A stretch of DNA of 64,000 nt from Armatimonadota bacterium (lineage in GTDB: Bacteria > Armatimonadota > Fimbriimonadia > Fimbriimonadales > Fimbriimonadaceae), in NCBI GenBank assembly GCA_018268255.1, contig JAFDWX010000001.1, forward strand, positions 310,001 to 374,000, written 5' to 3'. Below, piece after piece: positions 942-15,972 of the stretch. How positions within the stretch are numbered: the stretch's first letter is position 1; each line of letters starts with the position of its first letter. The translations under genes were made by a program, and so were the position numbers. Under the pieces are notes generated by a model, which did not search any database, had not been told where the DNA came from, and saw only the letters and a list, made by a program, of their open reading frames with translations.

Positions 942-1750
942 TCGAGTTCGTTCGGCAGACCCTTTCGCAGGATTTGGAGTTTGAGGGTAACGGATTGCAT
1001 TCGGGAGTGCCCGTCAAGGTGTGGGTGCGGCCCGGTGAGGATGGCATTTGGTTTCGTCATGGGCAAGAACGAGTCCAGGCTATTCCAGAAAACGTTTCGG
1101 ACACAACTCGTTGCACGCGTCTCGGATCCATAGCGACCATTGAGCACCTTATGAGTGCATTCGCTGGCGTGGGGATCACGGATGCAGAAATAGAGCTCAG
1201 CGAGCTGGAACTCCCCGCATTGGATGGTGCCTCATGGGTTTTCGCAACCGCTTTGGACGCTGTGCCCAAAGCTGAGCTTGGAACCGTTCAGCTGGAAGGT
1301 CTTTATGCTCGAGTCTACGAAAAGGAAGACTCTCACTCAATCGCAATCGCCCGGGGGGACGGCTGGTGGCGATACGAGTTCTTGACGGGAGACCGGTGGC
1401 CCGGATCTCAAGATTTTGAATTCCGTTGCAGTCCAGAGTCCTACATCGCTCAGATCGCGCCCGCCCGCACGTTCGGGTTCGAAGAAGAGCTACCGCAAAT
1501 AAAAGCAGCGGGACTGGCGAAAGGGCTCGACGAAACCAGTGCGCTTGTGCTGGGTCAGGAGGGGTATCTGAACACTCCGAAATTTGCGGACGAGCCTGTT
1601 CGCCACAAGCTTCTCGACCTCATCGGTGACCTTTACCTGGCTGGGATCCCGCCAACGCTTCTGAGCGTGGTTGCCGATCGAAGTGGCCACACGGCCAATG
1701 TGCGTGCGGCCAAAAAGCTCCGAGCCTCCGTTCGGGCCGTGAATGGCTAG
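938..1750 (+). CDS. lpxC: UDP-3-O-acyl-N-acetylglucosamine deacetylase LpxC
   Basis: Zinc deacetylase that carries out the committed step of lipid A synthesis. The three zinc-ligand and catalytic regions are visible: TIEHLMSAF (Glu-His), RHKLLDLIGDLYL (His and Asp) and RSGHTAN (His). At 270 residues it is somewhat shorter than the usual roughly 300. It starts at GTG 938, overlapping the lpxD stop by four bases (GTGA). Its TAG stop shares the CTAG at 1747-1750 with the convergent YCII-domain gene, so the lipid A operon ends here without fabZ or lpxA. Together with lpxD it shows that the organism makes lipopolysaccharide or a related lipid A outer leaflet. Confidence 0.96.
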   Translation: MIEFVRQTLSQDLEFEGNGLHSGVPVKVWVRPGEDGIWFRHGQERVQAIPENVSDTTRCTRLGSIATIEHLMSAFAGVGITDAEIELSELELPALDGASWVFATALDAVPKAELGTVQLEGLYARVYEKEDSHSIAIARGDGWWRYEFLTGDRWPGSQDFEFRCSPESYIAQIAPARTFGFEEELPQIKAAGLAKGLDETSALVLGQEGYLNTPKFADEPVRHKLLDLIGDLYLAGIPPTLLSVVADRSGHTANVRAAKKLRASVRAVNG

Positions 1751-2088
1751 TGCAACTGTCGAACTTCGACCGGAGTGCGACACGCTAGGACGGCTTTGCG
1801 ACCCCATTCCAAAGCTTCGTCCATATCTTTAGCCTCAAGAATCCAAAAGCCTCCCACATGCTCCTTTGTCTGGAGATATGGCCCGTCGCTCACCGCAACC
1901 GTGCCGTCGGGATTGGCGCGCAGAGACTTTGCTGTTTGGGGCGCGTAGAGTCCGTTTGCGTAGAGTCGAATACCCTTCTCGATCATCTCTTCGTTCAGCG
2001 CATCGATATCGGCATGAGTTTGAGCATCCTCAGAAACGGCGGGATCAAAGTCGTCGGGATGGTGAATGGCAACGAGAAACTGAGGCAT
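1747..2088 (-). CDS. YCII-related (DGPF-type) domain protein
   Basis: A 113-residue protein of the YCII-related ferredoxin-like fold. It begins MPQFLVAIHHPDDFDP and contains the segment VSDGPYLQTKEHVGGFWILEAKDMDEALEW, here cited only for its DGP and GGF(W)I elements, which are typical of the family also called DGPF. Members are often linked to sigma factors or act as small dimeric enzymes, but no specific reaction can be given. I chose ATG 2088 because the homologous part begins there; an upstream extension to 2166 has no family match. It stands alone and converges on lpxC with shared stop bases. No sigma-factor gene is adjacent. Confidence 0.8.
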   Translation of the reverse strand: MPQFLVAIHHPDDFDPAVSEDAQTHADIDALNEEMIEKGIRLYANGLYAPQTAKSLRANPDGTVAVSDGPYLQTKEHVGGFWILEAKDMDEALEWGRKAVLACRTPVEVRQLH

Positions 2089-2188
2089 GGGCCAGTTATG
2101 GCAGGTAGCTTCGAGTGGGTGCAACGCTCTTTGGGGTCTGCCACCGTGAATGACCGGACATTGCACGTAATTCCAGCAATCGAACCGA

Positions 2189-3286
2189 CTAGACTGCTTC
2201 GTAGGTTCGGCCAGAGAGGATTGTCAACAATCGAGGATTGAGGAACATCACGTCTCTCCCCGATTTCACCGCCTCCAAGATTCCAAGTCGAACCAGTTCG
2301 TACAGATACTCGCTCGCAGTCTGGCGCTTGGCGATTCCTGCCAGTTCCAAGTGCCGGATTCTTGTGTAGGGTTGGGTGTAGACAACCTCGATCAACTCAC
2401 GGCTGTATCCCCGGGGCATTTGCTCCCTCGCAAGAGCGACACTGGATTCGAGTGCTTGTGAGATCTGCTCGACCATCCGACGAGCCTGAATCGCGCTTTC
2501 CTCGATCCCCTCTAGGAGGAAGCATATCCAATCCTCCCAGCACTTCTGTTCGGTTACCGCCCGGAGGAGCCGATAGTAGTCCTTTTTGTGCTCGATGATG
2601 TACCCGGAGAGGTAGAGAACAGGAAGTTCCAACAGGCGTTTGTGAATGAGGAAGAGCACGTTGAGAATGCGCCCAGTGCGGCCGTTTCCATCCGGGAAAG
2701 GGTGGATTGCTTCGAACTGATAGTGGAGAACTGCCATCTGCACCAGCGGATCCACCTCGGTTTTGTCGTGGAAGTAGTTCAGGAAGTTCTCCAGCAAATC
2801 GAGGAGCAGCTTCTCACCTTCTGGCGGGGTGTAGACGACCTCACCCGTCCGAGGATTGCCGATTCTTGTGCCCGGTAGACGCCGGACACCGAGATCCCTG
2901 CCGGTAAGGATGCTCGCGAGCCTGATCACCAACGGTGTGCTCACCATCCCACCTTCGGCCAGATGCTCGTACCCTACCCAGAGTGCGTCGCCGTACCGAA
3001 TGACTTCTTTCGTGGCTGGGTCGCTGGATTGCTCTTCGGAAAGGGCTCGGTAAAGCTCATCGTTGGTGGTAACGATGTTCTCCACTTCGCTGCTGAAGCG
3101 AGCTTCTTGCAGCACGATCGACCTGAGAAGTACCGCTTGGTTTGGAATCAGGTTGCCAACCCCTCGTAACTCGGCCAAAGCCGTGTTAGCCGCAATTGCT
3201 CTCTTCAGAGTGCGCTTGGATTCCAGATCTTCTGCGGGAGGCAGCAACGGGAGTTCGTTGAACGGCTTCTTTGGGTCGTTGACCAT
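2189..3286 (-). CDS. Fic family protein (predicted AMP transferase) with C-terminal winged helix
   Basis: 365 residues. The Fic core motif HPFPDGNGRTGR is intact at residues 195-206 with its catalytic histidine, so transfer of AMP or another nucleotide group to a protein hydroxyl is expected from the family. Residues 65-70 (SSEVEN) fit the inhibitory helix consensus (S/T)xxxE(G/N), giving the N-terminal-inhibitor class. The last 80 or so residues (EVVYTQPYTRIRHLELAGIAKRQTASEYL in two pieces around AKRQTASEYL) look like a winged helix-turn-helix, common in stand-alone bacterial Fic proteins. No antitoxin gene accompanies it. Upstream lie two matching inverted repeats at 3292-3361; the nearer one overlaps the likely -10 (TAATAT), so self-repression through the C-terminal domain is a reasonable guess. 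The target protein is unknown. Confidence 0.92.
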   Translation of the reverse strand: MVNDPKKPFNELPLLPPAEDLESKRTLKRAIAANTALAELRGVGNLIPNQAVLLRSIVLQEARFSSEVENIVTTNDELYRALSEEQSSDPATKEVIRYGDALWVGYEHLAEGGMVSTPLVIRLASILTGRDLGVRRLPGTRIGNPRTGEVVYTPPEGEKLLLDLLENFLNYFHDKTEVDPLVQMAVLHYQFEAIHPFPDGNGRTGRILNVLFLIHKRLLELPVLYLSGYIIEHKKDYYRLLRAVTEQKCWEDWICFLLEGIEESAIQARRMVEQISQALESSVALAREQMPRGYSRELIEVVYTQPYTRIRHLELAGIAKRQTASEYLYELVRLGILEAVKSGRDVMFLNPRLLTILSGRTYEAV

Positions 3287-3291
3287 CTCTT

Positions 3292-3361
3292 GTCGACATA
3301 TTAGCCCAGATATGTCGATGATTGCAGGGATTCATCGACATATCGCCAATAATGTGTCGAT
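3292..3361 (-). promoter_or_regulatory. Two tandem 28-bp inverted-repeat operators upstream of the Fic gene
   Basis: Site 1 (3292-3319) is GTCGACATAT-N8-ATATGTCGAT and site 2 (3334-3361) is ATCGACATAT-N8-ATGTGTCGAT. Half-sites and 8-base spacers match, and the two centres are 42 bases apart, close to four helical turns, so bound dimers would sit on the same DNA face. Read on the minus strand, site 1 overlaps TAATAT, 11 bases before the Fic start codon, a likely -10. The geometry suggests cooperative binding of a dimeric repressor; the Fic protein's own winged helix is the nearest candidate. Confidence 0.75.
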
Positions 3362-3364
3362 GGC

Positions 3365-5332
3365 CTACAGCTTCAACTCAAGCGGATACACCGCCTTTAC
3401 GATCAGCCGAGACTCGAAAGAGCGCGAGTTCGGATCGCCGAGGATCACGAAATACTCTGCTCCACGACCGCCCGCACGCTTGTAGCTGAGATACGCGTTC
3501 CAGGCATTGCCGCGCTGGATCGCGCGACCGCTGATGCTTTGCAGAGAGTCGATTTCCCAGTTCACGCTGCTAATGATCTGGCGTTCGTCATCACCGTCTG
3601 ACGAGAGCCACTGAAACCCAATTCCGGTCTGCAGTCGGGGTAACGCTCGGTAGGCAAACGACAAAGAGTGCGACTGGAACGGTCGCTCCATGAATCGCCC
3701 GAAGCTGTAGTCGTATTGCCAACGGCGATAGGGGTCCCGACGTGGCTTTTCGATGCTGAAAAAGATGCTCTGATCGTCAAAAGTCTTAAACCGATTGAGC
3801 GTGCCGCCAAAGTCGAAGTCGATTCCGTTCCGGCTGGTGATGGAGCCGCTAAACGATGTCGAGCGACGGTAAGGAAGGCCGTCGAGGTGCCAGTAGTTCG
3901 CAGCATTGAACTCGAAGGCGGTCTCCATAATCGCTCCTTTTTGGTACGTCTGCAGATACGAAGGACCCGCCGAAATTCCCTTGTAATCCACGTCGGCTTG
4001 GTAACCGATGCGGGGTTCGAAGCGCTTTTCAACCGACTCCCATTCCCAGTAGAACGACAACCCTTTGTTGTTATAGGACTGACCGATGGAGTGCTTTGAG
4101 GCAAAATCCTTGGTGCTATCGAACGTTCCTGCGGCTTGAACCCAACTGAACCAAGCTCCTGATCCAAAGCCGTAATTGGCCCAAAGCGTGTCGTTGGAAT
4201 GCTCCTTATCCCGCAGCCCAGCGTAGGCGAAATTGAGATTCTGGCGTGCACGGGGGATATAGGTTGTGGACGCCACCACCGCCGTGCGCTCCTCTAGGGT
4301 TTGCAGAGCCATGACTCCAAAGTCCAACTTATCGGAGATATTCCCGAAGGCCTTTGCGCCCCAATCGAATGATGGGATTCTTTGCGGCAGGAATACTTTA
4401 GTACCAAAACCTGTGTTGAAAAAATTGCCTCCTTCCTGGAAAAATGGGCGACTTTCTGCGGTAACACGCTCAAAATAGCTCAAATCGAGGGAAAGAACCT
4501 GATTTTCAACATTCCTGAAATCCGGGTTGATGGTCCCCACAGCCTCGATCCTCGGAGCGAGTTGGGTCTTCATATCCAGGCCCGAGTTGAAGATCGGCTT
4601 CTGATTTCCACCACCCAGATAGCCGTAGGGCAACAGCTTCAGAGTCCGGTCCACGGGAGGCACGGGAATCTCGACATCGATCCAATTCCCTGTGTTCTCA
4701 ACCTTTCCCGCCGAGGTATCGCGCCAACTGTAATATCTCTGCGTACGCGGCATGTAACGGCTCACATTCACGCGCACGGTCCGCTTCCCAGCAGCTGGGA
4801 GCCGCATGATTTTCCATGGGATTCGCGCTTCGATCTCGTAGCCAAATTCCGTGAGTCTGCCCTTCGCCTGAATTTCACCGAGCCATTCGGTTTTCGCCGC
4901 CTTTCCTCCAGCGATATAGAGGGTTGTCGCGCCCTTCGGGTTGATCTGAAACGAGTTGAAGGCATCGAGGTTCCCCAGTACATCGATGTTGAAAAGCACG
5001 TGGTCGTCGCCGTTAAGGCTGACGTTCTGACGATATTCCGTCGCGTGGATCGTGGCGGGTTGAGAGTCCTGTGCACGATAGGCGAAATAGACATAGTCGT
5101 GGTCATAGGACAGCCAAAACTGGCCGTTCTCAGGGGAAGAAACTCCCGTTTCTTCGTCGACCAGTCCCTCACCGGTGCTGGCAGCACTCCATTCTTCGGG
5201 GTTGATCGTTCCGTCGATAAGAGGTGGGATTGGCGCGACGATTCCCGCAAGATCGCCGGGGTTCAGGGGTGCAGGATCGGATGATGGCAGAGATACAATG
5301 GCAGCGAGTGGCAAGAACGGCAACAATGGCAC
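3365..5332 (-). CDS. DUF5916-type outer-membrane protein with CBM9-like N-terminal domain
   Basis: 655 residues with an N-terminal signal-like stretch (MPLLPFLPLAAIVSLPSS), a carbohydrate-binding family 9-like domain starting near residue 38 (IDGTINPEEWSAA, then FWLSYDHDYVYFAYRAQDS) and a long C-terminal part rich in alternating aromatic strands, as expected for the DUF5916 beta-barrel. Family knowledge gives only a probable outer-membrane location; the cargo or ligand is not known. GTG 5332 is the only start after an in-frame TAG nine bases upstream, and a GGTAGACC box at 5339-5346 (minus strand) lies six bases before it. Its 5' end overlaps the divergent SGNH gene by seven bases. Confidence 0.8.
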   Translation of the reverse strand: MPLLPFLPLAAIVSLPSSDPAPLNPGDLAGIVAPIPPLIDGTINPEEWSAASTGEGLVDEETGVSSPENGQFWLSYDHDYVYFAYRAQDSQPATIHATEYRQNVSLNGDDHVLFNIDVLGNLDAFNSFQINPKGATTLYIAGGKAAKTEWLGEIQAKGRLTEFGYEIEARIPWKIMRLPAAGKRTVRVNVSRYMPRTQRYYSWRDTSAGKVENTGNWIDVEIPVPPVDRTLKLLPYGYLGGGNQKPIFNSGLDMKTQLAPRIEAVGTINPDFRNVENQVLSLDLSYFERVTAESRPFFQEGGNFFNTGFGTKVFLPQRIPSFDWGAKAFGNISDKLDFGVMALQTLEERTAVVASTTYIPRARQNLNFAYAGLRDKEHSNDTLWANYGFGSGAWFSWVQAAGTFDSTKDFASKHSIGQSYNNKGLSFYWEWESVEKRFEPRIGYQADVDYKGISAGPSYLQTYQKGAIMETAFEFNAANYWHLDGLPYRRSTSFSGSITSRNGIDFDFGGTLNRFKTFDDQSIFFSIEKPRRDPYRRWQYDYSFGRFMERPFQSHSLSFAYRALPRLQTGIGFQWLSSDGDDERQIISSVNWEIDSLQSISGRAIQRGNAWNAYLSYKRAGGRGAEYFVILGDPNSRSFESRLIVKAVYPLELKL

Positions 5333-6063
5333 GATTCTGGTCTACCTTATCTTGGTTCTTAGAGTTCCTTTATATCGGGCTTGGCGTGGGGCTTGCGGTG
5401 TGCATCGCAGGTTGCCAAACGTCAACGCCAGACACCAGGCACATCATGCCCGGAAAGACTCCGCTCCGCGAAGGGCGCAATGAAATCTCTTGGATGGAAG
5501 TTCATGAAGTCATGGTTCGCCGGAGCAATGCCCATCCACCCACGATCCTCCTCATTGGAGACTCGATCCTCGCCGATTGTGGATTTAGTGATCCGACCAT
5601 GTTGAACCTATCCCATCCAGGAGACCGCATCGGAAATGCATGCTGGCGACTCCTCGACAAACGGTTGAACCTGGGCAAGGTGAAGGCGGCATTCGTCCTG
5701 ATTGGCACCAACAACGTGCTGATCAACAACCAAGACCAAATGAGATCCCAGTTTCGGGACTTACTGAGATTGCTCAAAGCTGCAATTGATCCCAATGCAA
5801 GGATTATCGTATCCACGATTCTGCCTCGCGCCGACAAACCGGGCGTCGATCTATCTGTGCTTGTCGGTACGCGCAATCAGGCCGTGCTTGCAGCTTCTCA
5901 AGCTGAAAGAGTGGAATCAACTGACCTCGCTGCGCTGTTTGCGGATTCCTCGGGCGCGCTCAAACTAGACCTTTATCAATCGGACCGTTTGCACCTATCT
6001 CCCGAAGGTCAATATCTACTGCGCGCGAAAGTCACGAACGTCCTTTTGGGCCTGAGACCGTAG
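5326..6063 (+). CDS. SGNH/GDSL-type esterase lipoprotein
   Basis: 245 residues. A hydrophobic N terminus ends in CIAGC at residues 26-30, a likely lipobox, so the protein should be anchored to a membrane. The SGNH hydrolase blocks are present: GDSILADC (nucleophile serine), GTNN (block III asparagine) and DRLHLSPEGQ (Asp-x-x-His). Such enzymes remove acyl or acetyl groups from lipids, sugars or glycans; the substrate cannot be told. I chose ATG 5326 because it sits just before the signal; earlier ATGs near 5281 would add a charged 15-residue extension. It overlaps the divergent DUF5916 gene by seven bases, so one of the two starts may be slightly off. Confidence 0.82.
   Translation: MARFWSTLSWFLEFLYIGLGVGLAVCIAGCQTSTPDTRHIMPGKTPLREGRNEISWMEVHEVMVRRSNAHPPTILLIGDSILADCGFSDPTMLNLSHPGDRIGNACWRLLDKRLNLGKVKAAFVLIGTNNVLINNQDQMRSQFRDLLRLLKAAIDPNARIIVSTILPRADKPGVDLSVLVGTRNQAVLAASQAERVESTDLAALFADSSGALKLDLYQSDRLHLSPEGQYLLRAKVTNVLLGLRP
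5339..5346 (-). promoter_or_regulatory. Candidate -10 box for the DUF5916 gene
   Basis: GGTAGACC read on the minus strand, six bases before GTG 5332. It fits the recurrent box described in the findings and would place the transcript start at or next to the start codon. No clear -35 is seen. Confidence 0.4.
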
Positions 6064-6072
6064 GTTCACCCA

Positions 6073-6080
6073 GGTAGACT
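6073..6080 (+). promoter_or_regulatory. Candidate -10 box for the DegT-family gene
   Basis: GGTAGACT ends seven bases before ATG 6088, and no Shine-Dalgarno sequence lies in between, which suggests a leaderless transcript. Confidence 0.5.
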
Positions 6081-6087
6081 GAATAGT

Positions 6088-7206
6088 ATGAGCGCCACCC
6101 TATCCAAGATCCCCGTCCTCGACCTCAAACCCGAAATTGCGCTAATACGCGATGAGCTGATGGCGGCGATCGAGGGTGTGCTTGACTCGACCCAATTCAT
6201 CATGGGGCCGAACGTCAAGGCGTTTGAGCAAGAAGTGGCCGAGTACATGGGCGTTAAACATGCCGTTGCCCTCAACTCAGGAACCGATGCTCTGATTTTG
6301 GGTTGTTCGGCTCTTGGCCTCAAGCCTGGTGATGAAGTCATTACGACACCGTTTACGTTCTTTGCCACAGGCGAAGCGATTAGCCACTTTCACGCAACAC
6401 CGGTGTTCGTGGACATCGACCCCACTACGTACAACCTGGATCTCAACCAAGTTGAGGCGCGGATAACGGAAAAGACCACGATGATCCTTCCGGTCCACCT
6501 CTACGGCCACGCTGTGGATATGGACCCGCTCTTAGCATTGGCCAAGAAGCATAACCTGAAGGTATTGGAGGACTGCGCTCAGTCGTTCGGGTCAACATAC
6601 AAAGGCAAGAAAACGGGTGCCATCGGAGAAGGTGGCGCGTTTAGCTTCTTCCCAAGCAAAAACCTAGGCGCATTCGGCGACGGCGGAATGTTCACCACGA
6701 ACGACGATTCCTATGCGGACACCGTACGAATGCTGCGGGTCCACGGCGCACGAAAGAAGTACTTCAACGAAACCGTTGGAGTGAATTCTCGACTGGACGA
6801 ACTCCAAGCTGCCATCCTCCGTGTGAAGTTCCGCTACATCGACGAGTGGAACGCGGGCCGCCGCCGAGCCGCAAATTACTACACGGATGCTCTGAACAAA
6901 ATCGATGGCGTGATTCCACCATCGGCTGCGGATTACACCGATCACGTGTATCACCAGTACACAATCCGGATCCTTGGCGGAAAGCGCGATGCCGTTCAGC
7001 AAAAGCTCGCTGAGGAAGGCATTGGAAGTTTTGTCTACTACCCCGTCGCTCTCCACAAGCTGCCTGTGTACGCAGAGAAGCCACATCATCCGCTTCCGGT
7101 GAGCGATCAGCTCAGCACAGAAGTCCTAAGTTTGCCAATTTGGCCGACAATTGAAGAATCTGTCCTTGATCGAGTGACCAAAGTCATCGCCAACGCCGTC
7201 TCTTAA
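6088..7206 (+). CDS. DegT/DnrJ/EryC1 family PLP-dependent aminotransferase
   Basis: 372 residues, the usual length for sugar aminotransferases that convert nucleotide-linked keto-sugars to amino-sugars using glutamate and pyridoxal phosphate. Visible family marks are ALNSGTDALILG (phosphate pocket), EDCAQSFGSTYKGKKTG, the PLP lysine in FFPSKNLGAFGDGGM (Lys191) and the C-terminal VYHQYTIRI. It lies 125 bases before a Wzx-like flippase, so it probably supplies an amino-sugar for a surface polysaccharide or O-antigen. The exact sugar is not readable from sequence. It has its own promoter-like box at 6073-6080. Confidence 0.92.
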   Translation: MSATLSKIPVLDLKPEIALIRDELMAAIEGVLDSTQFIMGPNVKAFEQEVAEYMGVKHAVALNSGTDALILGCSALGLKPGDEVITTPFTFFATGEAISHFHATPVFVDIDPTTYNLDLNQVEARITEKTTMILPVHLYGHAVDMDPLLALAKKHNLKVLEDCAQSFGSTYKGKKTGAIGEGGAFSFFPSKNLGAFGDGGMFTTNDDSYADTVRMLRVHGARKKYFNETVGVNSRLDELQAAILRVKFRYIDEWNAGRRRAANYYTDALNKIDGVIPPSAADYTDHVYHQYTIRILGGKRDAVQQKLAEEGIGSFVYYPVALHKLPVYAEKPHHPLPVSDQLSTEVLSLPIWPTIEESVLDRVTKVIANAVS

Positions 7207-7209
7207 TCT

Positions 7210-7241
7210 CGCAGGGGGTGAACAATGCTGTTTTCCCTGCG
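7210..7241 (+). terminator. Hairpin after the DegT-family gene
   Basis: CGCAGGG (7210-7216) pairs with CCCTGCG (7235-7241). A second small stem, CCGGG/CCCGG at 7248-7267, follows. There is no good T-run, so termination is only possible, not certain; the flippase may still be co-transcribed. Confidence 0.35.
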
Positions 7242-7331
7242 TTATTGCCGGGTGTACGGATTCCCGGTGAGAGATAAGAGAAACCCTTGGCTGTTCAAGA
7301 AAAAATTGCATCTCACAAGGCTACAGTCATC

Positions 7332-8594
7332 ATGCGACTGAAGCCTAAAAGCGACTTCAGCAGACAAGTCCTCACTCTGGCCACAGGCACGGCGATTGCC
7401 CAAGTGCTACCACTTGCGGCACTTCCGATCGTAAGTCGACTTTACACCCAGTCCCAAGTCGGAATTCTCACGCTGTTTTTGTCCATTGCCAGCGTGCTCG
7501 GAATCATCGCGACCGGAAGGTACGAGCTCGCCATCATGCTGCCCGAGGAGGATGAGGATGCTGTTAACCTCCTCGCGATTTCAATTACCTGCAGCGTGGT
7601 GTTTGCCGTTCTCACGCTCCTCATCGCCGTCTTCTTCAACGGCCAGATTTGTTCTTTGTTGGAATCGCGTGAAATCGGGCCGTGGCTTTACTGGATCCCG
7701 GCAACACTGATCGCGAATGCGGCTTACCAGGCTTACAACTACTGGTTCAATCGCAAGGAGATGTATCACCGCCTCGCTGTGAACCGCATCGGCCGTTCAG
7801 CAATCACTGAAGGTAGCAAGATCGGGTTTGGGACGTTGGCCCTCAGCCATATCGGATTAGTAATAGGCACGGTATTAGGCCAGACCGTCACTGCTCTGCG
7901 GTTCTTTTGGCAAGCCCGTCACGAGGATCGTGCGTCCATGAACAAGATCTCATGGGTGGGCATGCGAAAGATGCTCGGCAGATACCGAGATTTTCCGAGA
8001 TACACCGTACCTGCGGAGGTGGTCAACGACCTCAGTAAACGACTTCCGGTCTTTATCTTGGCAGGATTTGGGTCCACCGTCACAGGAAATTTCGGTATGG
8101 CCCAAATGGTAATGGGCGGACCATTGGGAATTCTGGGATCGGCATTCGCGGACGTCTTCAAGCAGCGGGCGTCGCGCGATTTTATCGAGCACGGCGAGTG
8201 CCGGGCTTTGTGGCTCAGGACTTTCAAGAAGCTCATCTTGATTTCCGTGCCGGTGTTCACCCTTGCCTATCTGTTAGCTCCTGTGGCGTTCAAGGTGATC
8301 CTCGGTCCTAAATGGGTTGAAGCAGGTTACTTCGCCCAGGCACTCACGCCGTACTATGCACTGGCCTTTATTGCGTCGCCCCTCTCCCGCACTCTGTACG
8401 TTGCCGAGGACCAGCATCTGGATCTCATCTGGCAATTGGGCCTGGTTGTGGGGGTGTATGCTGCGCTCACGTTCGGAGAGCAAACCGGAAATGTTTTGAC
8501 CACCCTTCGTTGGTTTGCTTGGACCTATACCGCCCTTTACGCGATATACCTGCTCCTCAGCTACCGATCATCTTGTGGCAAAACCCGCTCGTAA
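7332..8594 (+). CDS. Wzx-like polysaccharide flippase (oligosaccharide transporter family)
   Basis: 420 residues with about 11-12 hydrophobic segments from residue 15 (VLTLATGTAIAQVLPLAALP) to the end (TYTALYAIYLLLSY). The opening pattern, in which a short charged tail is followed by a membrane segment with GTAIAQ and then SRLYTQSQVGILTLFLS, is typical of the RfbX/Wzx group of polysaccharide biosynthesis exporters. They flip lipid-linked glycan units across the inner membrane. ATG 7332 was chosen over an earlier TTG because the membrane fold starts right after it. It is next to the DegT aminotransferase, which agrees with a surface-glycan job. No glycosyltransferases are in the window, so the cluster is a fragment or dispersed. 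Confidence 0.85.
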   Translation: MRLKPKSDFSRQVLTLATGTAIAQVLPLAALPIVSRLYTQSQVGILTLFLSIASVLGIIATGRYELAIMLPEEDEDAVNLLAISITCSVVFAVLTLLIAVFFNGQICSLLESREIGPWLYWIPATLIANAAYQAYNYWFNRKEMYHRLAVNRIGRSAITEGSKIGFGTLALSHIGLVIGTVLGQTVTALRFFWQARHEDRASMNKISWVGMRKMLGRYRDFPRYTVPAEVVNDLSKRLPVFILAGFGSTVTGNFGMAQMVMGGPLGILGSAFADVFKQRASRDFIEHGECRALWLRTFKKLILISVPVFTLAYLLAPVAFKVILGPKWVEAGYFAQALTPYYALAFIASPLSRTLYVAEDQHLDLIWQLGLVVGVYAALTFGEQTGNVLTTLRWFAWTYTALYAIYLLLSYRSSCGKTRS

Positions 8595-8652
8595 GAATAC
8601 GGTTTTTGTTCGGAACCTACGGACAAACTGTGAAAAGTTGTCACAAACGATT

Positions 8653-8962
8653 TTGCAAATGGTCCTGGTTGCGCTAAGATATTATCAGTTTGGGTAAGTC
8701 CAAATGGTGGCTCAAAGGCTACTTGAATTGCGCTGAGTACTGAGAGGTTGGACCATCCTTTGGAGAGGTGAGATTGGTGGTGGCTTCACTCCCGTTTTGC
8801 TGCCTTTAATCGTATCCCTATCTCAGAAAACATCGCGATGCCCCGGCATCCCGAGGCTGCCACAAGGTGTGCCTCGGGCTTGCGCCCGGCCTAGATGAGG
8901 CGGAACAGCTTCGGTGGGCATTTTGGGGAAAACTTGCCTCGCTCCCGGTTTCGGGGCGAGGC
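8653..8962 (+). ncRNA. Candidate structured non-coding RNA between the flippase and DUF6614 genes
   Basis: The 376 bases between 8595 and 8970 hold no plausible gene but show transcript-like order. TTGCAA (8653-8658) and AAGATA (8676-8681) are 17 bases apart, as in a promoter. Downstream, GTCCAA (in the segment after 8697) can pair with TTGGAC near 8748, then CCCGAGGC (8850-8857) pairs with GCCTCGGG (8871-8878), and a strong hairpin at 8936-8962 ends in a pyrimidine-rich run. I could not match it to tmRNA, RNase P RNA, SRP RNA or 6S RNA by their conserved words. It may be an unnamed small RNA, or simply a long untranslated stretch. Confidence 0.35.
8936..8962. terminator. Bidirectional terminator hairpin
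   Basis: GCCTCGC (8936-8942) pairs with GCGAGGC (8956-8962), and the inner CCCG/CGGG extends the stem. On the plus strand CTCTTCTCTTATT follows; on the minus strand AAGTTTTCC follows. It could end both the candidate RNA and the DUF6614 gene, whose stop lies eight bases away. Confidence 0.65.
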
Positions 8963-8970
8963 CTCTTCTC

Positions 8971-9303
8971 TTATTGTTCCAACACGTCCGGGTAATCGCG
9001 GTACAACCCCGACTTGTAATTCTGGACCCGGCTATAAACCTGTCTGTGGAGCTCTTCGACCTCGCCCGTCCTAGTCGCGGCGACCTTAAACGCTTCGTCT
9101 AACTGGGCAAGATTGCGTGTTTCAATGGAGATGGAAAATTCTCCCAGATCTGCCGGTCCGAAACCGAACTTCCTGCGCTTGATCCGGAATGTCTCGATAG
9201 TCCCCTTCGCCTGCAGAAAGCCAAGATAGGCGTTGATGGCATCCACAAACTCTGTGTCTTTGGCTCCTGGCGCTAGGTCGACCCAGATCTCGTAACAGTC
9301 CAT
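8971..9303 (-). CDS. DUF6614-like small protein
   Basis: 110 residues starting MDCYEIWVDLAPGAKDTEF. The conserved-looking stretches are the N-terminal MDCYEIWVDL, YLGFLQAKG, RIKRRKFGFGP and GEFSISIETRNLAQLDEAF, a pattern I associate with the DUF6614 family of about 110 residues; the fold looks like a ferredoxin-like alpha/beta protein. No function is known to me. ATG 9303 is chosen because a GGTAGAGT box (9311-9318, minus strand) ends seven bases before it. It is divergent from alaS with only 41 bases between start codons. Confidence 0.65.
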   Translation of the reverse strand: MDCYEIWVDLAPGAKDTEFVDAINAYLGFLQAKGTIETFRIKRRKFGFGPADLGEFSISIETRNLAQLDEAFKVAATRTGEVEELHRQVYSRVQNYKSGLYRDYPDVLEQ

Positions 9304-9310
9304 GCAAGGG

Positions 9311-9334
9311 ACTCTACCCCTTGGCGGGTACCCT
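9311..9334. promoter_or_regulatory. Back-to-back -10 boxes for DUF6614 and alaS
   Basis: GGTAGAGT on the minus strand (9311-9318) ends seven bases before ATG 9303. GGTACCCT on the plus strand (9327-9334) ends ten bases before ATG 9345. Both fit the recurrent box seen elsewhere in the window. The two promoters are packed into 41 bases, leaving almost no room for leaders. Confidence 0.5.
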
Positions 9335-9344
9335 TCTCCCATTC

Positions 9345-12131
9345 ATGAACGCATCGGAACTCCGCCGAAAGTACCTCCGCTTTTTCGAATCAAAGGGACA
9401 CTCCGCGTATCCTTCGGGATCCCTTGTGCCCTATGATGTCACGGGTCGCCTGGATGAATCGCTCCTGTTCAATGGAGCGGGGATGGTTCAATTCAAGCCG
9501 TACTTTCGGGGAGTTGCCAAGCCCGAAAATCCTAGGCTGACAACGGCGCAGAAATGTGTGCGCACCGGAGATATCGATGAAGTAGGTGATCTAAGCCACC
9601 TGACATTTTTTGAAATGTTGGGGAATTTTAGTTTTGGTGACTACTTCAAGGCCGAAGCGATTGATTTTTCGTGGGAATTCTTGACTTCCGATCAATTTCT
9701 GGCTTTGGATCCTAGCAGGCTTTCGTTCACGGTTTTCGAAGAAGACGATGAGGCTTACGAATGCTGGTCCAAGCATCTTCGAAGCGTTGCCATCGCGCCA
9801 GAAACGCGGATTTTCCGTTTGGGCGAAGAAACAAACTACTGGCCCGCTGGAGCGTTTTCAGCTGGACCTCCCGGCCCGTGCGGACCGAACTCCGAGATGT
9901 TCTACTGGTGCAATCCCAGTGTCCCGGTGCCATCTGTCCAGTCTGGATATGGTGTTTCGGACTACCTGCGCGATGATCAAGCGGGAAACTGGCTGGAAAT
10001 TTGGAATGACGTGTTCATCCAGTTCGAGTGGCAAGGGCGACCTGCCGACTCGGAGCGGCCGGGGAGTGGCTATGTCAAAGAGGGGATGCCAGAACTTCCG
10101 TTCAAGTCCATTGACACTGGCATGGGTCTGGAAAGGACGTCCGCTGTGCTTCTCGGAAAACAGAGCGTCTACGACACGGATGTCTTCACACCGATCTTGG
10201 AGCGAATCCAATCGCTTAGCGGTAAGTCCTATGGAAAAGACGACGCAACTGATCGGGCGATGCGGGTGATTGCGGACCACATCCGCACGTCGTGTTTCTG
10301 CATCGCCGACGGCATTTTGCCTAGCAACAACGGCCGAGGCTACGTGCTGCGGCGTCTGATCCGTCGCGCGGTCCTTAAGGGACAAAGAGTTCTGGGATTC
10401 GACAAGCCGTTTTTCCACGGAGTTTTTCCAGCAGTGGTCGAGGCTATGGGGGACCACTATGGAGAGTTGGTCGAGCGAAAGCCTGCGATCGAAGAAACTT
10501 TGCGTAACGAAGAGGACCTCTTTAGGCGCACGCTCCACTCGGGATACGGCAGACTCCAGTCCGAACTTGAGCGCATGAATCCGGGAGATACCTTGCCTGG
10601 CGAGTCAGCCTTTCGTCTCTATGATACGTTCGGCTTTCCGCTGGAAGTCACCAAAGAGCTTTGTGACGAAGCCGACATCCGTCTGGACGAGGTCGGCTAT
10701 GAAACAGCCATGAAGGAGGCGCAGGCACGATCCCACGAAGGGAGCGGGATGGACGCTGTCTATGCCGGTGTTTCATTCACATTCGTTTTTGGGGACGGCG
10801 AACTCGAAGTCACCCCTACCCAGTTTTTGGGCTATGAGCTTGCGTCTGCCCAGGCGATGGTCCGTGGTGCAGTACCAGAAGTGGATGAGGATGGACGGTG
10901 TACCGGCCGTGTGGGCATCGCTCTAGACCAAACGCCATTCTATGCCGAATCGGGCGGACAAATCAGCGACACCGGCCTGATCACGGGGGAATCGTTTGAG
11001 TTCAGAGTCATCGATCTGATCAAACAGGATGGAGTCTATGTTCATTTTTGCGAACCCGTCCGATTCAACCATCCGGAACCTCTGACGGGAATGGCGGCCG
11101 ACCACGCCGCAAAGGTCGTGCACCATCAGCTTTTCGACCATCCCGTGGTAGCTCGAATCGATTTGGAGCGACGACGTTCGATTATGCGTAACCACACGGC
11201 CACCCACTTGCTGCACGCAGCGCTGCGCAGCCGTCTGGGCAAGCACGTGACTCAAGCTGGATCACGAGTGGCTCCGAATGAACTTCGGTTCGATTTCACG
11301 CACGGCAAAGCGATTTCGCACGACGATTTGGCGATGATCGAACGAGACATCAACGAGCAAATCTGGGCAAACACACCGGTCATCACGTACGTGGACTTGC
11401 CAATCGAGGACGCCAAGGCTCGCGGAGCGATGGCGCTCTTCGGTGAGAAATACGGAAATCGCGTGCGCATGGTCGAAATCGGCGAATACAGCCGAGAACT
11501 CTGCGGTGGAACCCACGTAGCCGCGACCGGTGAAATAGGACTCTGCAGGATTGTCAGCGAATCCAGCGCTGCCAGCGGAGTGCGGCGGATTGAAGCAGTC
11601 ACGGGCGAGGGAACCGTCCAGTGGCTCAACGACCAAGTCGAGATTTTGCGGACGGCTTCGGGATTGCTTAAGTCCTCTCCCAAAGACCTCGTTCATTCCA
11701 TCGAGAAGCTCTTGGAGACGGTCAAAGACGAGCGACGCAAGAGAGAGCAACTGGCTTCACAAGGCGCGGGTGCCTCGGCTTCGCAAGTCGATTCGGTCGG
11801 TTCAGTCGAATTGGCAACTCAGAAACTCACCGCTGGGGACCCGAAAGATGCCCAGTTGGTGGCGGATCGGCTGGTTGACGGAAAACCGGCTCGTGTCGCC
11901 CTGGTCGGGTTGGTGGCAGATGGCAAGGTCAGCTTCGTGTGCAAAGTCGGTGCCGAAGCTCTCTCAAAAGGTGCCCACGCGGGCAACCTGCTTCGAGAGG
12001 TCGCGAAGATCGCCGGAGGCGGTGGCGGCGGAAAGCCGGACTTCGCAACCGCTGGCGGCCGAGATGCTGACAAGGTCGACGAGGCTCTCAGCGCTGGGGT
12101 GGCGGTACTGAAAGCGATGGTGGCTGACTAA
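9345..12131 (+). CDS. alaS: Alanine--tRNA ligase
   Basis: 928 residues. Charges tRNA-Ala with alanine and edits mischarged serine or glycine. The class II catalytic part is at the N terminus (LLFNGAGMVQFKPYFRG, then CVRTGDIDEVG, and GMGLERTSAVLLG). The editing domain carries HTATHLLHAALR and CGGTHVAATGEIG, giving the His and Cys zinc ligands. The C-Ala domain ends with a glycine-rich loop and GGKPDFATAGG. Length is slightly above the usual roughly 875. ATG 9345 matches the family start; a promoter-like box lies ten bases before. Its 3' end overlaps the convergent proteasome gene by 44 bases. Confidence 0.98.
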   Translation: MNASELRRKYLRFFESKGHSAYPSGSLVPYDVTGRLDESLLFNGAGMVQFKPYFRGVAKPENPRLTTAQKCVRTGDIDEVGDLSHLTFFEMLGNFSFGDYFKAEAIDFSWEFLTSDQFLALDPSRLSFTVFEEDDEAYECWSKHLRSVAIAPETRIFRLGEETNYWPAGAFSAGPPGPCGPNSEMFYWCNPSVPVPSVQSGYGVSDYLRDDQAGNWLEIWNDVFIQFEWQGRPADSERPGSGYVKEGMPELPFKSIDTGMGLERTSAVLLGKQSVYDTDVFTPILERIQSLSGKSYGKDDATDRAMRVIADHIRTSCFCIADGILPSNNGRGYVLRRLIRRAVLKGQRVLGFDKPFFHGVFPAVVEAMGDHYGELVERKPAIEETLRNEEDLFRRTLHSGYGRLQSELERMNPGDTLPGESAFRLYDTFGFPLEVTKELCDEADIRLDEVGYETAMKEAQARSHEGSGMDAVYAGVSFTFVFGDGELEVTPTQFLGYELASAQAMVRGAVPEVDEDGRCTGRVGIALDQTPFYAESGGQISDTGLITGESFEFRVIDLIKQDGVYVHFCEPVRFNHPEPLTGMAADHAAKVVHHQLFDHPVVARIDLERRRSIMRNHTATHLLHAALRSRLGKHVTQAGSRVAPNELRFDFTHGKAISHDDLAMIERDINEQIWANTPVITYVDLPIEDAKARGAMALFGEKYGNRVRMVEIGEYSRELCGGTHVAATGEIGLCRIVSESSAASGVRRIEAVTGEGTVQWLNDQVEILRTASGLLKSSPKDLVHSIEKLLETVKDERRKREQLASQGAGASASQVDSVGSVELATQKLTAGDPKDAQLVADRLVDGKPARVALVGLVADGKVSFVCKVGAEALSKGAHAGNLLREVAKIAGGGGGGKPDFATAGGRDADKVDEALSAGVAVLKAMVAD

Positions 12132-12855
12132 GGGCCGGCTCACCTTCGATTTGGTCGATCCCTTCCCGTGTTAAGGTCCAGACCACCGGTGGGTTCTTGG
12201 CGATACCACCCGTTGCTGAATCCAGGTCCGCGGCAATTTCCAGCATGGTCTTGCCTTCCTTCAGCACATCCTTGAGTTTGCGTTCATGCCAGGGCTTGCC
12301 TGTCATCGCAACGTAGTCAAAGATCCCCCGAATGCGTTCAGAGCCCGATCCCGCGCATGCGTAGTCTGCGCTGGTGAATCGCGCCCCGGCGGAGTCGAAG
12401 AAATAGACTTGGAACGTATCGGTCTTGGAGTCATAGGCTCCCAGAATCGGGAGAAAAAGACCGATCCCCTGCATGGCCATGGGCAAATTGGCAGCCAGGG
12501 CTTTCGAGATCTCCTGGAGTTTGCCTTCCAGGCTCATCGGAGCCAAATACATTCGGCTGAAGTATTTGAAGCTGTGCTGCAGCATCCTGCAAACCTCGAT
12601 CGAACGGGCGAAGGACCCCGAGATAGCCACCAAGGTCGAATCGTCTAACGGGACGATCTTTTCTGCCTTGTCATACATGATCAGGTTGCCCATCGTGGCG
12701 CGCCTGTCCGCTAGCATCACGATTCCGTCATCGTAGCGCAAGGCCAAAACCGTGGTGCCGTGCGTCTCCAGGCTGGCATCACCTGCAACAAACTCGGGCC
12801 GATTAAACCCGACTAAGTCTTGAAATGACTTTGGAGGTTCGACTTGTATGCTCAC
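12088..12855 (-). CDS. prcB: 20S proteasome beta subunit (PrcB-type)
   Basis: 255 residues. After a 33-residue propeptide comes HG|TTVLALRYDDG: the scissile Gly-Thr makes Thr34 the catalytic Thr1. Counting from it, Asp17 (LADRRAT) and Lys33 (KAEKIV) are in place, so the active site is complete. Further PrcB marks are AGSGSERIRG and LDSATGG. HslV is shorter and lacks the DSATGG-type end, and no hslU is near. It starts at GTG 12855, overlapping the UBact stop by four bases. It should form the proteolytic chamber that destroys UBact-tagged proteins. An alpha subunit and an ATPase ring (Mpa/ARC type) are not in the window. Confidence 0.92.
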   Translation of the reverse strand: MSIQVEPPKSFQDLVGFNRPEFVAGDASLETHGTTVLALRYDDGIVMLADRRATMGNLIMYDKAEKIVPLDDSTLVAISGSFARSIEVCRMLQHSFKYFSRMYLAPMSLEGKLQEISKALAANLPMAMQGIGLFLPILGAYDSKTDTFQVYFFDSAGARFTSADYACAGSGSERIRGIFDYVAMTGKPWHERKLKDVLKEGKTMLEIAADLDSATGGIAKNPPVVWTLTREGIDQIEGEPALSQPPSLSVPPPQR

Positions 12856-13037
12856 TGCCCAGACCTTTGGCGATATTTCTTAGCCTGATCAGGGTCGACC
12901 TTCTTGAGCCGCTTCATCAATTCGTTGGGTCCTCCGGGTTTCTTCAGATCTGGCTTCGTGGGGCCGCCCTCGTCGCCAAGCTTTCGCTCAGGCTCAGGAG
13001 ACATCGGTCGGGTGGTGCGTTCGCCTTGAATGATCAT
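12852..13037 (-). CDS. UBact (Pup-like protein modifier)
   Basis: 61 residues: a small, charged, proline- and lysine-rich and probably disordered protein that ends KKYRQRSGQ. The end R-Q-R-x-G-Q, a DEGGP segment in the middle and the stretch LMKRLKKVDPDQA fit the Pup-like modifier described as UBact in Armatimonadetes, Nitrospirae and related phyla. The C-terminal glutamine would have to be deamidated to glutamate before ligation, as for Gln-ending Pup. ATG 13037 lies 14 bases after the dop stop; a 25-residue upstream extension would run into dop and is rejected. There is no clear Shine-Dalgarno. Its TGA overlaps the GTG of the proteasome gene. Confidence 0.85.
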   Translation of the reverse strand: MIIQGERTTRPMSPEPERKLGDEGGPTKPDLKKPGGPNELMKRLKKVDPDQAKKYRQRSGQ

Positions 13038-13051
13038 GGTGCTATCTAATC

Positions 13052-14518
13052 TTACGACGGAGTTTCGCTTTCGAGCGCGCGTATGAAACTCTCGACGGTG
13101 GAAAGTTGCCATAAGCTCTGGGAATACCGCCGGTTGGGTTCCAAAGTGACCTCGCGAGGCTCCCCATTGACCCGAAAGACGATCGATCGCCAGCAGCAGG
13201 CAAGGATATCATCGGAGAATTTGGATACTGCGATCGCGCGCGGAAGGGCTCTGGAGTCTTGGGTCGGCTCGGTGTCGTTCTGCAAGGGATCGTCCACCAA
13301 TTCTTCTTCCAGAAGGCCCTCAAACAAGCCCGAATCCGGGTCAAGGTCGCAGTAGGCCAGATCGAGGCTCTGGGCCATGGGATCTCGAAAGCTCTGGACC
13401 TCTCCCAGCTCTTCGATGACATACTTTTTGGCTGCCCAGTCAATCAACCGAGTCGGATCCTCGCTTTGAGTCGCGATCGCCTCCATGCGGCGACGACAGA
13501 GTCTTTCAAGCACTAAGAATTCGTCGTCTTCCGGGCAATGGCGCGCGTACGAGGTCAGATAGTCGTCGAGGATGTGGAGCGCGGTTGTATGAGACCCTCG
13601 ATCCAGTTCGATTCGGCCGTTGCCGGACAGATCGCGGCTGACGTTCTGAAACGATCGGACCGGGTCGGAAATGGCCCACGCGGGCGCGACTCCAAGTTCC
13701 GCAAGGGCAACGGCGATCTTTACCAAACCCACTCGGATGTAGGTATTCGACATCATCATATTGGCGTCTCCGCTGATGACGTGAAGGCGGATGAACTCGC
13801 TGATGTTGGCGTGGGGCTCATCACGTGTGTTAAAAATCGGCCGACGATAGAGCGTCTCGGCGTTGGCAGCTTCAGCAAAAAAATCTGCCCGCTGACTCAT
13901 CTGGAAATCGACCCAGGTCTTATTTTCCGCGCCCACTTTTCCGGCACCACTGATGAGCTGTCGCGCGATCAAGATCGGGAGAACTGACGCATAGAGCCGC
14001 TCGAAACCAAGAGACCTTGAGCACAGGTAGCTCTCATGCGTTCCGTAGGCTGCTCCGTGAAAGTCGGTGTTGTTCTTAAAGACCCGGACGTTTCGATCGG
14101 TGTGTTCACGATAGGCAATCGCCGTCTGCCAGACATGGTCTTGGCCGTGGCGATCCCAGTATGCGAGCTCTCTGAGGCCGAAGCACTCGGGGGTCGAATA
14201 CTCCGGGTGGCCGTGGTCGTTATAGAACCTGGCACCGTTCGCCAGAACACGATCAGCCCGAACATTAGCGTCGGTTTGCGCTAACTTCGAGTCAGATTCG
14301 AATTTCCAATCTTCTGGATCGACAGCTAGGTGGTCCAGCTTGAATCCGCGAAGATCTTGCCGAGGAGACTCATATCGGTAATCCCAACCGGCAAAAAAAG
14401 GTCCAGGACTCGACTGGACAAATTCCATCGAATCCTGGACCTGATGCGTCGGATCGCGACCTTCTACCAGCAGCCCGTACTCGGTTTCGGTGCCGGCGAG
14501 AATGTCGCTCAGTTTCAC
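13052..14518 (-). CDS. dop: Dop-like deamidase/depupylase (Dop/PafA family)
   Basis: 488 residues from GTG 14518. Family motifs are GTETEYG (9-15, metal-binding glutamates), GARFYNDHGHPEYSTPEC with Asp101 at the nucleophile position, NNTDFHGAAYGTHESYL, SQRADFF, NTRDEPHA and LHVISGDANMMMSNTY. Between residues 44 and 90 it has the extra loop that marks Dop rather than the ligase PafA; WDYRYESPRQDLRGF closely resembles Dop of Actinobacteria. It should convert the C-terminal Gln of UBact to Glu and remove the modifier from targets. GTG 14518 overlaps the preceding lipoprotein stop as GTGA. A longer reading from 14692 lies inside that gene and is not used. No second, PafA-like copy is in the window. 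Confidence 0.9.
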   Translation of the reverse strand: MKLSDILAGTETEYGLLVEGRDPTHQVQDSMEFVQSSPGPFFAGWDYRYESPRQDLRGFKLDHLAVDPEDWKFESDSKLAQTDANVRADRVLANGARFYNDHGHPEYSTPECFGLRELAYWDRHGQDHVWQTAIAYREHTDRNVRVFKNNTDFHGAAYGTHESYLCSRSLGFERLYASVLPILIARQLISGAGKVGAENKTWVDFQMSQRADFFAEAANAETLYRRPIFNTRDEPHANISEFIRLHVISGDANMMMSNTYIRVGLVKIAVALAELGVAPAWAISDPVRSFQNVSRDLSGNGRIELDRGSHTTALHILDDYLTSYARHCPEDDEFLVLERLCRRRMEAIATQSEDPTRLIDWAAKKYVIEELGEVQSFRDPMAQSLDLAYCDLDPDSGLFEGLLEEELVDDPLQNDTEPTQDSRALPRAIAVSKFSDDILACCWRSIVFRVNGEPREVTLEPNRRYSQSLWQLSTVESFIRALESETPS

Positions 14519-15810
14519 CCGCGGTAGACCGAAAGGCCTCCGCCTGTTGCGAACGGCCAAGTTGCCGTCGAAGAGGTCACGTCCCAATTGGCTTTCATCA
14601 GAGCACCATTTTTCAGTACTGCGCCAGAAATCTTGCCTGAGACCTTTTCGGTGTTGTTCGGCACAGCATCGTCGATGGTATTGACTGGCCACAGGCTGAA
14701 TGTTCCGGTGCTGTCCGAGCCATCGAGCGTCATATCGATGCGGCCCTCCCAGAGAGCGGAGACTCGACCGTCGGAACCGACCGTGTAGACGACCATCTGG
14801 AAGACTGATGTGTCACTTGCGGAAGGCAGAGCGATGGCAACGAGATCGCCGTTGGGCGTTACGACCGATTTGAAATCTTTCCAAACACCCGTAAGGGCTG
14901 CCTGCTGGACATCGCTCGGGTCGCGATCAAAGAGGGTGTAAGTATTGTTCGCCTTGTCACCGCCGATATTTGGTCCAGTTGCGATCACGCCGGACTTGAT
15001 GGCCACAGGGTCCAGCAGTTCGAATGTGCTGTTAGAATCTGAGCCGCGGCTCACGGCAATTGCGTCGCCGCTGAAGTAGACCGTATCAGCCGAAGATCCC
15101 GTGCTCATGTTGGGCCGCTGGGCTCCCGACAAGCCGCTCACATCGAATGCCAAAAAGTCGGAGAAAAATCCTCGCAAGGCATTGACTCGCGGATCGTAAT
15201 TGGCAGCGGTGAACTGGTCTTCGTCAAAGGTGATGCCATCGGCGTCGGAATAGCTCAGCATGTTGTCATTCAGGAGCATCTGAATGGCTGTATATCTGCC
15301 GGGAATCGTGGTGACTTGGACGTCGAACGGAGCTAAAGCTTCTACAGCCGGATCGCTTGCTGCGGGCAGATCGGCCGAGGTCCCATCGCCCAGGATCTCC
15401 TGCAATTTCTTGACTCGGAACGGGTACTCCGTAAACTCTCGAGAGCTGACCGAAACGTTGTCGAATCGGACCGGGATGTACACCGAATAGGCTTTGTACT
15501 CGTCCAATACGACCTTCAACTCGCCGAGCTGTGTGTCGTTCGACTGGGGAATTCGATCATCGGTGCCGTTCTGGAGTTCGATATCATCGAGTACGGCCAC
15601 CTGAGATCCCACGCCTCGGTTGGTGCCCGTTAGGTAGGTCACCTGAACAACTCCGTTGGTGGGCAAGTTGAACGATGGATAGGATCGGCTTACGCCGGTA
15701 TCCCCGCCGTTTCCATTCCCGTTGTCACCTGAACTGAGACCTTCACCGCCACATCCAAACATGAAGACAGCGACTGCTGCGATTAATAGTGATTTTCCGA
15801 TCTTCGACAC
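14515..15810 (-). CDS. Lipoprotein of unknown function, coupled to dop
   Basis: 431 residues. The N terminus VSKIGKSLLIAAVAVFMFGC ends in a plausible lipobox with Cys20, followed by a Gly/Asn-rich linker (GGEGLSSGDNGNGNGG) typical of exported lipoproteins. The rest is beta-rich with repeated Ser/Thr/Asp; I recognise no family. GTG 15810 is preceded by GAGG nine bases upstream (GAGGATTGGCCA), supporting this start. Its TGA stop overlaps the GTG of dop, so an exported lipoprotein is translationally coupled to a cytoplasmic UBact enzyme. Whether this is functional or only compact gene order is unknown. Confidence 0.75.
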   Translation of the reverse strand: MSKIGKSLLIAAVAVFMFGCGGEGLSSGDNGNGNGGDTGVSRSYPSFNLPTNGVVQVTYLTGTNRGVGSQVAVLDDIELQNGTDDRIPQSNDTQLGELKVVLDEYKAYSVYIPVRFDNVSVSSREFTEYPFRVKKLQEILGDGTSADLPAASDPAVEALAPFDVQVTTIPGRYTAIQMLLNDNMLSYSDADGITFDEDQFTAANYDPRVNALRGFFSDFLAFDVSGLSGAQRPNMSTGSSADTVYFSGDAIAVSRGSDSNSTFELLDPVAIKSGVIATGPNIGGDKANNTYTLFDRDPSDVQQAALTGVWKDFKSVVTPNGDLVAIALPSASDTSVFQMVVYTVGSDGRVSALWEGRIDMTLDGSDSTGTFSLWPVNTIDDAVPNNTEKVSGKISGAVLKNGALMKANWDVTSSTATWPFATGGGLSVYRG

Positions 15811-15972
15811 TGGCCAATCCTCGGTTTGATAAACAGATTCGCGCACACAGGATGCGTGCACCTCCGCTCATCAGACGCCTATCTGCTCCCGATAGTTTGC
15901 ACGGTTTTGGCTCAGTGTTGCCAGGGTGCAAGCGCGTGAACTCAAAAAAAGGTGGGTGAACCGGTGGAAGGA

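Follow-up and report, generated by a model that had tools for sequence, protein, structure and literature searches.

Three neighboring genes in a 64,000-nucleotide (nt) stretch of an Armatimonadota genome (family Fimbriimonadaceae; assembly GCA_018268255.1, contig JAFDWX010000001.1, positions 310,001 to 374,000; hereafter "the window") raise the question of whether this bacterium tags proteins with a small modifier and degrades them in a proteasome. A first reading made from the DNA letters (hereafter "the sequence-only reading") had placed a 61-residue protein ending in RQRSGQ between the genes for a Dop-like enzyme and a 20S proteasome beta subunit and had proposed a working tag-and-degrade system. 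The Pup-proteasome system is best studied in mycobacteria. We conclude that the window genes very probably belong to the UBact form of that system, acting in tag-and-degrade, with the rest of the machinery encoded elsewhere in the genome.

A UBact modifier gene between dop and prcB

The coordinates confirm the modifier's position between the two other genes, all three of which lie within 12088-14518 on the minus strand of the window:

13052..14518, minus strand: dop, Dop-type deamidase/deconjugase (488 amino acids, GTG start; PF03136, E = 2.4e−112)
13038..13051, minus strand: 14-nt gap from the Dop stop to the UBact start (from the sequence)
12852..13037, minus strand: UBact modifier (61 amino acids, C-terminal RQRSGQ; PF20513, E = 1.9e−20; NF033388, E = 9.7e−22)
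12852..12855, minus strand: GTGA, 4 nt in which the UBact stop and the PrcB start overlap (from the sequence)
12088..12855, minus strand: prcB, 20S proteasome beta subunit (255 amino acids, a 33-residue leader and then Thr1; PF00227, E = 7.6e−26)

The description of these genes as an overlapping set holds for UBact and prcB, whose stop and GTG start codon share the GTGA, and fails for dop and UBact, which the 14-nt gap separates.

The small product had been taken for a relative of Pup or UBact, and the profile searches bear this out: it scores far above the cut-offs of Pfam UBact (PF20513, 72.8 bits, cut-off 27.8) and of NCBIfam ubiq_like_UBact (NF033388, 77 bits, cut-off 35). Its identity as an actinobacterial Pup is rejected for want of a match to PF05639 in a scan up to E = 1; a PF05639 search of the whole window genome also returned no match, while a Corynebacterium control did match. 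A phmmer search of solved structures with UBact gave no meaningful match. Among 106 distinct UBact relatives, the tail reads RQRSGQ in 63 and RQRSGE in 43, with no other ending. Because the three window genes match their family profiles with E-values of 1e−20 to 1e−112 and this tail is invariant among the 106 homologues, chance open reading frames are ruled out. The AlphaFold2 model of UBact is mostly unstructured, with C-terminal helices at residues 39-45 and 49-59, and is of low confidence (mean predicted local distance difference test score [pLDDT] of 64.7), as would be expected of a largely disordered tag. The tryptic remnant on modified lysines, earlier given as "GE," should instead be Ser-Gly-Glu (SGE, +273.10 Da), as calculated from a tail cut between QR and SGE.

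The other two products retain their catalytic residues, as the sequence-only reading had claimed. Dop carries the GTETEYG motif, and its Asp101, within YNDHGHPEY, aligns with the catalytic Asp94 of the solved Acidothermus Dop. In PrcB, Thr1, Asp17 and Lys33 (counted from TTVLAL) are intact, and they are kept in 100 of 103 distinct PrcB relatives. The closest solved relatives of PrcB are the Mycobacterium and Rhodococcus PrcB proteins. The possibility that it is HslV rather than a 20S beta subunit was rejected on its match to TIGR03690 (E = 1.3e−35, under the cut-off) versus those to the HslV models (E = 2e−6 and 2e−5).

The remaining machinery is encoded on other contigs

The genome of the window also encodes a 20S alpha subunit, an ARC/Mpa ATPase and a second enzyme of the Dop/PafA family. 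The alpha subunit, a PrcA-like protein of 226 amino acids on contig 8, has a weak Pfam match (24.5 bits) and matches TIGR03691 with an E-value of 1.5e−21, and phmmer relates it to Rhodococcus and Mycobacterium PrcA (E = 1e−11 to 1e−10). Its fold is assigned by model: the AlphaFold2 prediction (pLDDT of 85) best matches mycobacterial and Rhodococcus proteasome chains (E of about 1e−14, template modeling score of about 0.8). The ATPase (563 amino acids) is also encoded on contig 8, at a place separate from prcA; its scores are 349 bits for solved Mpa and 449 bits for TIGR03689 (cut-off, 505). There are exactly two PF03136 genes in the genome, the window dop and one on contig 4, the latter encoding the putative PafA-type ligase. 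All six genes are open and belong to the families named.

By analogy with actinobacteria, UBact would be produced with a C-terminal Gln that Dop would deamidate to Glu. The contig-4 ligase would then use ATP to join this Glu to lysines of target proteins, and the ARC/Mpa ring would bind the tag through its coiled coil and thread the target into the barrel of 20S alpha and beta subunits, where it would be degraded. Dop may also be able to remove the tag.

UBact and its partners are present or absent together

UBact is encoded in 167 of 291 Armatimonadota genomes, representing 88 of 156 genera. Co-occurrence was evaluated in 70 genomes chosen mainly for assembly quality, most of them picked for having UBact and three lacking it. 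Every one of the 67 UBact-positive genomes has at least two PF03136 matches, at least one 20S-type match and an ARC match. In the three UBact-negative genomes (G133, G134 and G177) there are no PF03136 or ARC matches; PF00227 has no match in G133 and G134 and one match, of HslV size, in G177. Since G133 and G134 belong to the same genus, these amount to two independent absences rather than three. A count of alpha subunits alone is omitted because, at the threshold used, at least four genomes have a divergent alpha subunit that PF00227 does not pick up. The proposal of a working tag-and-degrade system is thus supported both by the presence of the remaining machinery and by its joint absence from genomes without UBact.

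The genomes G133 and G134 (1.5 Mb, 97% complete) come from the window's own family and are without detectable UBact, Pup-ligase family, PF00227 and ARC genes. Given that they have no PF00227 match, HslV is absent as well as the 20S proteasome. These losses possibly reflect genome reduction.

A search of named genome contigs with the UBact alignment found 301 places that encode relatives, of which 80 were kept; the same contigs searched with the Dop sequence alone gave no match. Except for a few labeled simply "bacterium" and one labeled Methanoregulaceae, the 80 places are in assemblies of Armatimonadota such as Fimbriimonas, Chthonomonas and Fimbriimonadaceae. The Methanoregulaceae contig, JADZEW010000030.1 ("Methanoregulaceae archaeon"), carries a Fimbriimonadales-type UBact-prcB pair with dop about 2 kb upstream, and the assembly is probably mislabeled.

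Which of the two PF03136 enzymes is the ligase?

Four observations weigh against the assignment of these genes to a UBact-proteasome system. First, Dop, PafA, PrcA, PrcB and ARC all fall below the cut-offs of their NCBIfam equivalog models. Such scores are expected of models that were apparently built from actinobacterial sequences. Second, the contig-4 enzyme scores almost equally against the PafA model (TIGR03686, 305 bits) and the Dop model (TIGR03688, 299 bits). Third, its closest solved match is a Dop. Fourth, the GxYx docking motif is absent from ARC, and a penultimate Tyr is found in none of 33 distinct Armatimonadota ARC proteins.

The second and third of these observations bear on the division of labor between the two enzymes. 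Because the two model scores are so close, we base the ligase assignment on diagnostic features and on elimination. The residues that neighbor the catalytic Asp in Dop and PafA are tabulated in PMC7947786 (Table 1), where PafA is marked by a Val-Gly-Ser that follows the catalytic Asp and an Ala-Thr that follows EY. The contig-4 enzyme has Asp75-Ala-Val-Gly-Ser-His and EYAT, which are invariant in 15 sequences save for one Ala/Glu difference after the Asp, and it is without the Dop-loop, its stretch from the ETE[FY]G motif to the catalytic Asp being about 28 residues shorter than in Dop. These features, with the window enzyme accounted for as Dop, point to a PafA-type ligase. The window enzyme scores 320 bits against TIGR03688 and 233 bits against TIGR03686, each under the cut-off, and its closest solved matches are Dop (4b0r/5lrt, 246 bits), with PafA at 153 bits. 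Around Asp101 it has the Dop-type His next to the Asp (DH) and, further on, Ser-Thr-Pro, together with the insertion of about 28 residues that the contig-4 enzyme does not have.

If the two roles were reversed or shared, ligation would be carried out by the enzyme encoded beside UBact. The near-equal scores of the contig-4 enzyme would suit such an arrangement, as would the alpha-loop of the window Dop (FFAEAANAETLYRR), which keeps few of the Dop-specific residues listed in the same table. However, the DH, Ser and Pro residues and the insertion in the window enzyme, as well as the Val-Gly-Ser insert, the Ala-Thr after EY and the missing Dop-loop in the contig-4 enzyme, all argue for the conventional assignment, and we regard a reversal or sharing of roles as very unlikely.

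ARC tail, alpha-subunit pocket and ligase segment

The fourth observation concerns the contact between ATPase and proteasome. The C-terminal GQYL tail of Mpa opens the mycobacterial 20S proteasome (PMC9599533), and GxYx is the C-terminal tail motif of the actinobacterial proteasomal ATPase (PMC6466877). The 33 distinct ARC proteins end mostly in [RK]x[VI][VIL], with that of the window genome ending in NRHDVV. In the alpha subunit of M. tuberculosis, Arg26 contacts the tail Tyr and Lys52 can bind the tail carboxylate (PMC9599533). All 14 alpha subunits compared have Lys48, the equivalent of Lys52, and none has Arg at the position equivalent to Arg26; in five deeper sequences, however, the residue just before is Arg, so the alignment may be off by one residue in these five.

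An ARC without the docking tail of Mpa could mean that tagging and UBact recycling work but serve mostly as a signal uncoupled from proteasomal degradation. The lack of a penultimate Tyr and of the Tyr-contacting Arg speaks for such uncoupling. On the other hand, ARC proteins conserve a short hydrophobic C-terminus of their own, the carboxylate-binding Lys is invariant and no 20S proteasome was detected in the genomes without UBact; uncoupling is therefore improbable.

The candidate ligases share a further peculiarity: at the site of NTRDE in solved PafA and Dop, all 15 sequences have NPK, which continues with W in 14. Since the ARC tail and the NPK segment are both conserved, neither resembles decay. 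We tentatively suggest, as a possibility well short of probable, that ARC proteins of the UBact branch dock on the 20S proteasome by a conserved hydrophobic tail without Tyr ([RK]x[VI][VIL]-COOH). The pocket for this tail would retain the Lys that binds the carboxylate and lack the Arg that contacts the Tyr, so that gate opening would be unlike that by Mpa and HbYX ATPases. In the ligase, on the same reading, the NTRDE common to Dop and actinobacterial PafA would be replaced by the invariant NPK(W). The Tyr-free tail and the NPKW segment may be less well known details of the system.

Gene order in relatives

The sequence-only reading had also expected linkage of the modifier gene to dop and prcB in related genomes. 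Among 69 named loci with enough flanking sequence, 64 have dop at most 2.6 kb upstream of UBact and, in the same orientation, prcB downstream of it; in 62 of the 69, dop is immediately adjacent to UBact. In deeper relatives all six genes are found together, in the order ARC-dop-UBact-prcB-prcA-pafA, at ten loci (G045, G046, G059, L156, L163, L166, L170, L171, L174 and L175, some of which may represent the same genome twice). In the window's family, dop-UBact-prcB alone remain clustered, and prcA, pafA and ARC are at separate places. Even this core is partly broken in family f2, where G066 has no prcB beside UBact and G072 lacks both dop and prcB at that place.

The shrunken cluster would be the mark of a decayed remnant if the pathway had been broken since prcA, pafA and ARC left it. 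Yet intact copies of all three are present at other places in this genome, and the scattered arrangement, with open frames, is shared by most of the family. A remnant with missing parts is rejected, as all parts were located on other contigs, and we consider decay of the pathway extremely unlikely. A UBact-proteasome system dispersed over the genome remains our preferred reading.

Two genes adjoin the set in the window. Upstream of dop, at 14515-15861 on the minus strand, lies an unrelated gene for a predicted lipoprotein (448 amino acids), without a family match in scans against Pfam and NCBIfam. Its stop and the start of dop share 4 nt; it may therefore be co-transcribed with dop-UBact-prcB. 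On the other side, the 3′ ends of prcB and the convergent alaS (9321-12131) overlap by 44 nt (12088-12131).

Some relatives carry additional PF03136 genes. In G046, which also has a normal UBact cluster, a second, very divergent cluster (L096, G046:C18:1-9500, positions 850-9204) encodes two PF03136 proteins (one with C-terminal tetratricopeptide-like repeats), an AAA ATPase that resembles ARC and has proteasomal OB domains, a protein with a weak JAB domain and a small protein without a Pfam match that, judged by eye, is E2-like. This cluster may be a separate conjugation system that mixes Pup-ligase and ubiquitin-type parts. Another genome with a normal UBact cluster has three tandem PF03136-family genes (L097, G055:C14:4000-20000, positions 5452-10124), and extra copies resembling these are found in G003:C34 (L099) and G008:C2.

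Comparison with known systems

The novelty implied by the sequence-only reading does not stand: UBact in Gram-negative bacteria was named by Lehmann et al. 2017 (BBRC 483:946, doi 10.1016/j.bbrc.2017.01.037; as cited in PMC12751074), is a curated family and is common in Armatimonadota. The accompanying report of lpxC and lpxD in this organism is borne out for lpxC (PF03331, E = 6e−61); an LpxD match is present but scores 29.6 bits, just under the Pfam cut-off of 30.8. By its curated profiles the window modifier belongs to the family of Lehmann et al. and has the same G[QE] ending, and its partners are likewise conjugation homologues and a proteasome, as far as the title of that paper indicates. 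The modifier is no different here; the cluster is, being split over four places in the window genome.

Pup-like genes outside Actinobacteria were noted in 2008 as having a G[EQ] C-terminus, a length of 50-90 residues and a PafA/Dop homologue next to them, in most lineages also with proteasome genes (PMC2588565). The window UBact shares this signature, size range and neighborhood. That description has both PafA homologues as Pup neighbors in all lineages, whereas here Dop alone adjoins UBact and the ligase is encoded on a different contig. With its scattered genes the window system departs from the 2008 description, which is no great surprise.

With the actinobacterial Pup-proteasome system of Mycobacterium, Rhodococcus and Corynebacterium, the window system shares the enzyme families and the order of steps, and its proteins find their nearest solved relatives in actinobacterial Dop, PafA, PrcA, PrcB and Mpa. 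It differs in its modifier, which ends in SGQ and falls outside PF05639, in an ARC without the GxYx tail and in a ligase with NPKW for NTRDE. No new principle is involved, as a complete UBact-proteasome system is to be expected in Armatimonadota. The value of our observations is as a map: the system is common in this phylum and is retained or lost as a set, and in one family its cluster has been broken up with UBact still between dop and prcB. The lack of Tyr in the tail of ARC and the changed segment of the ligase provide concrete points of comparison with mycobacteria.

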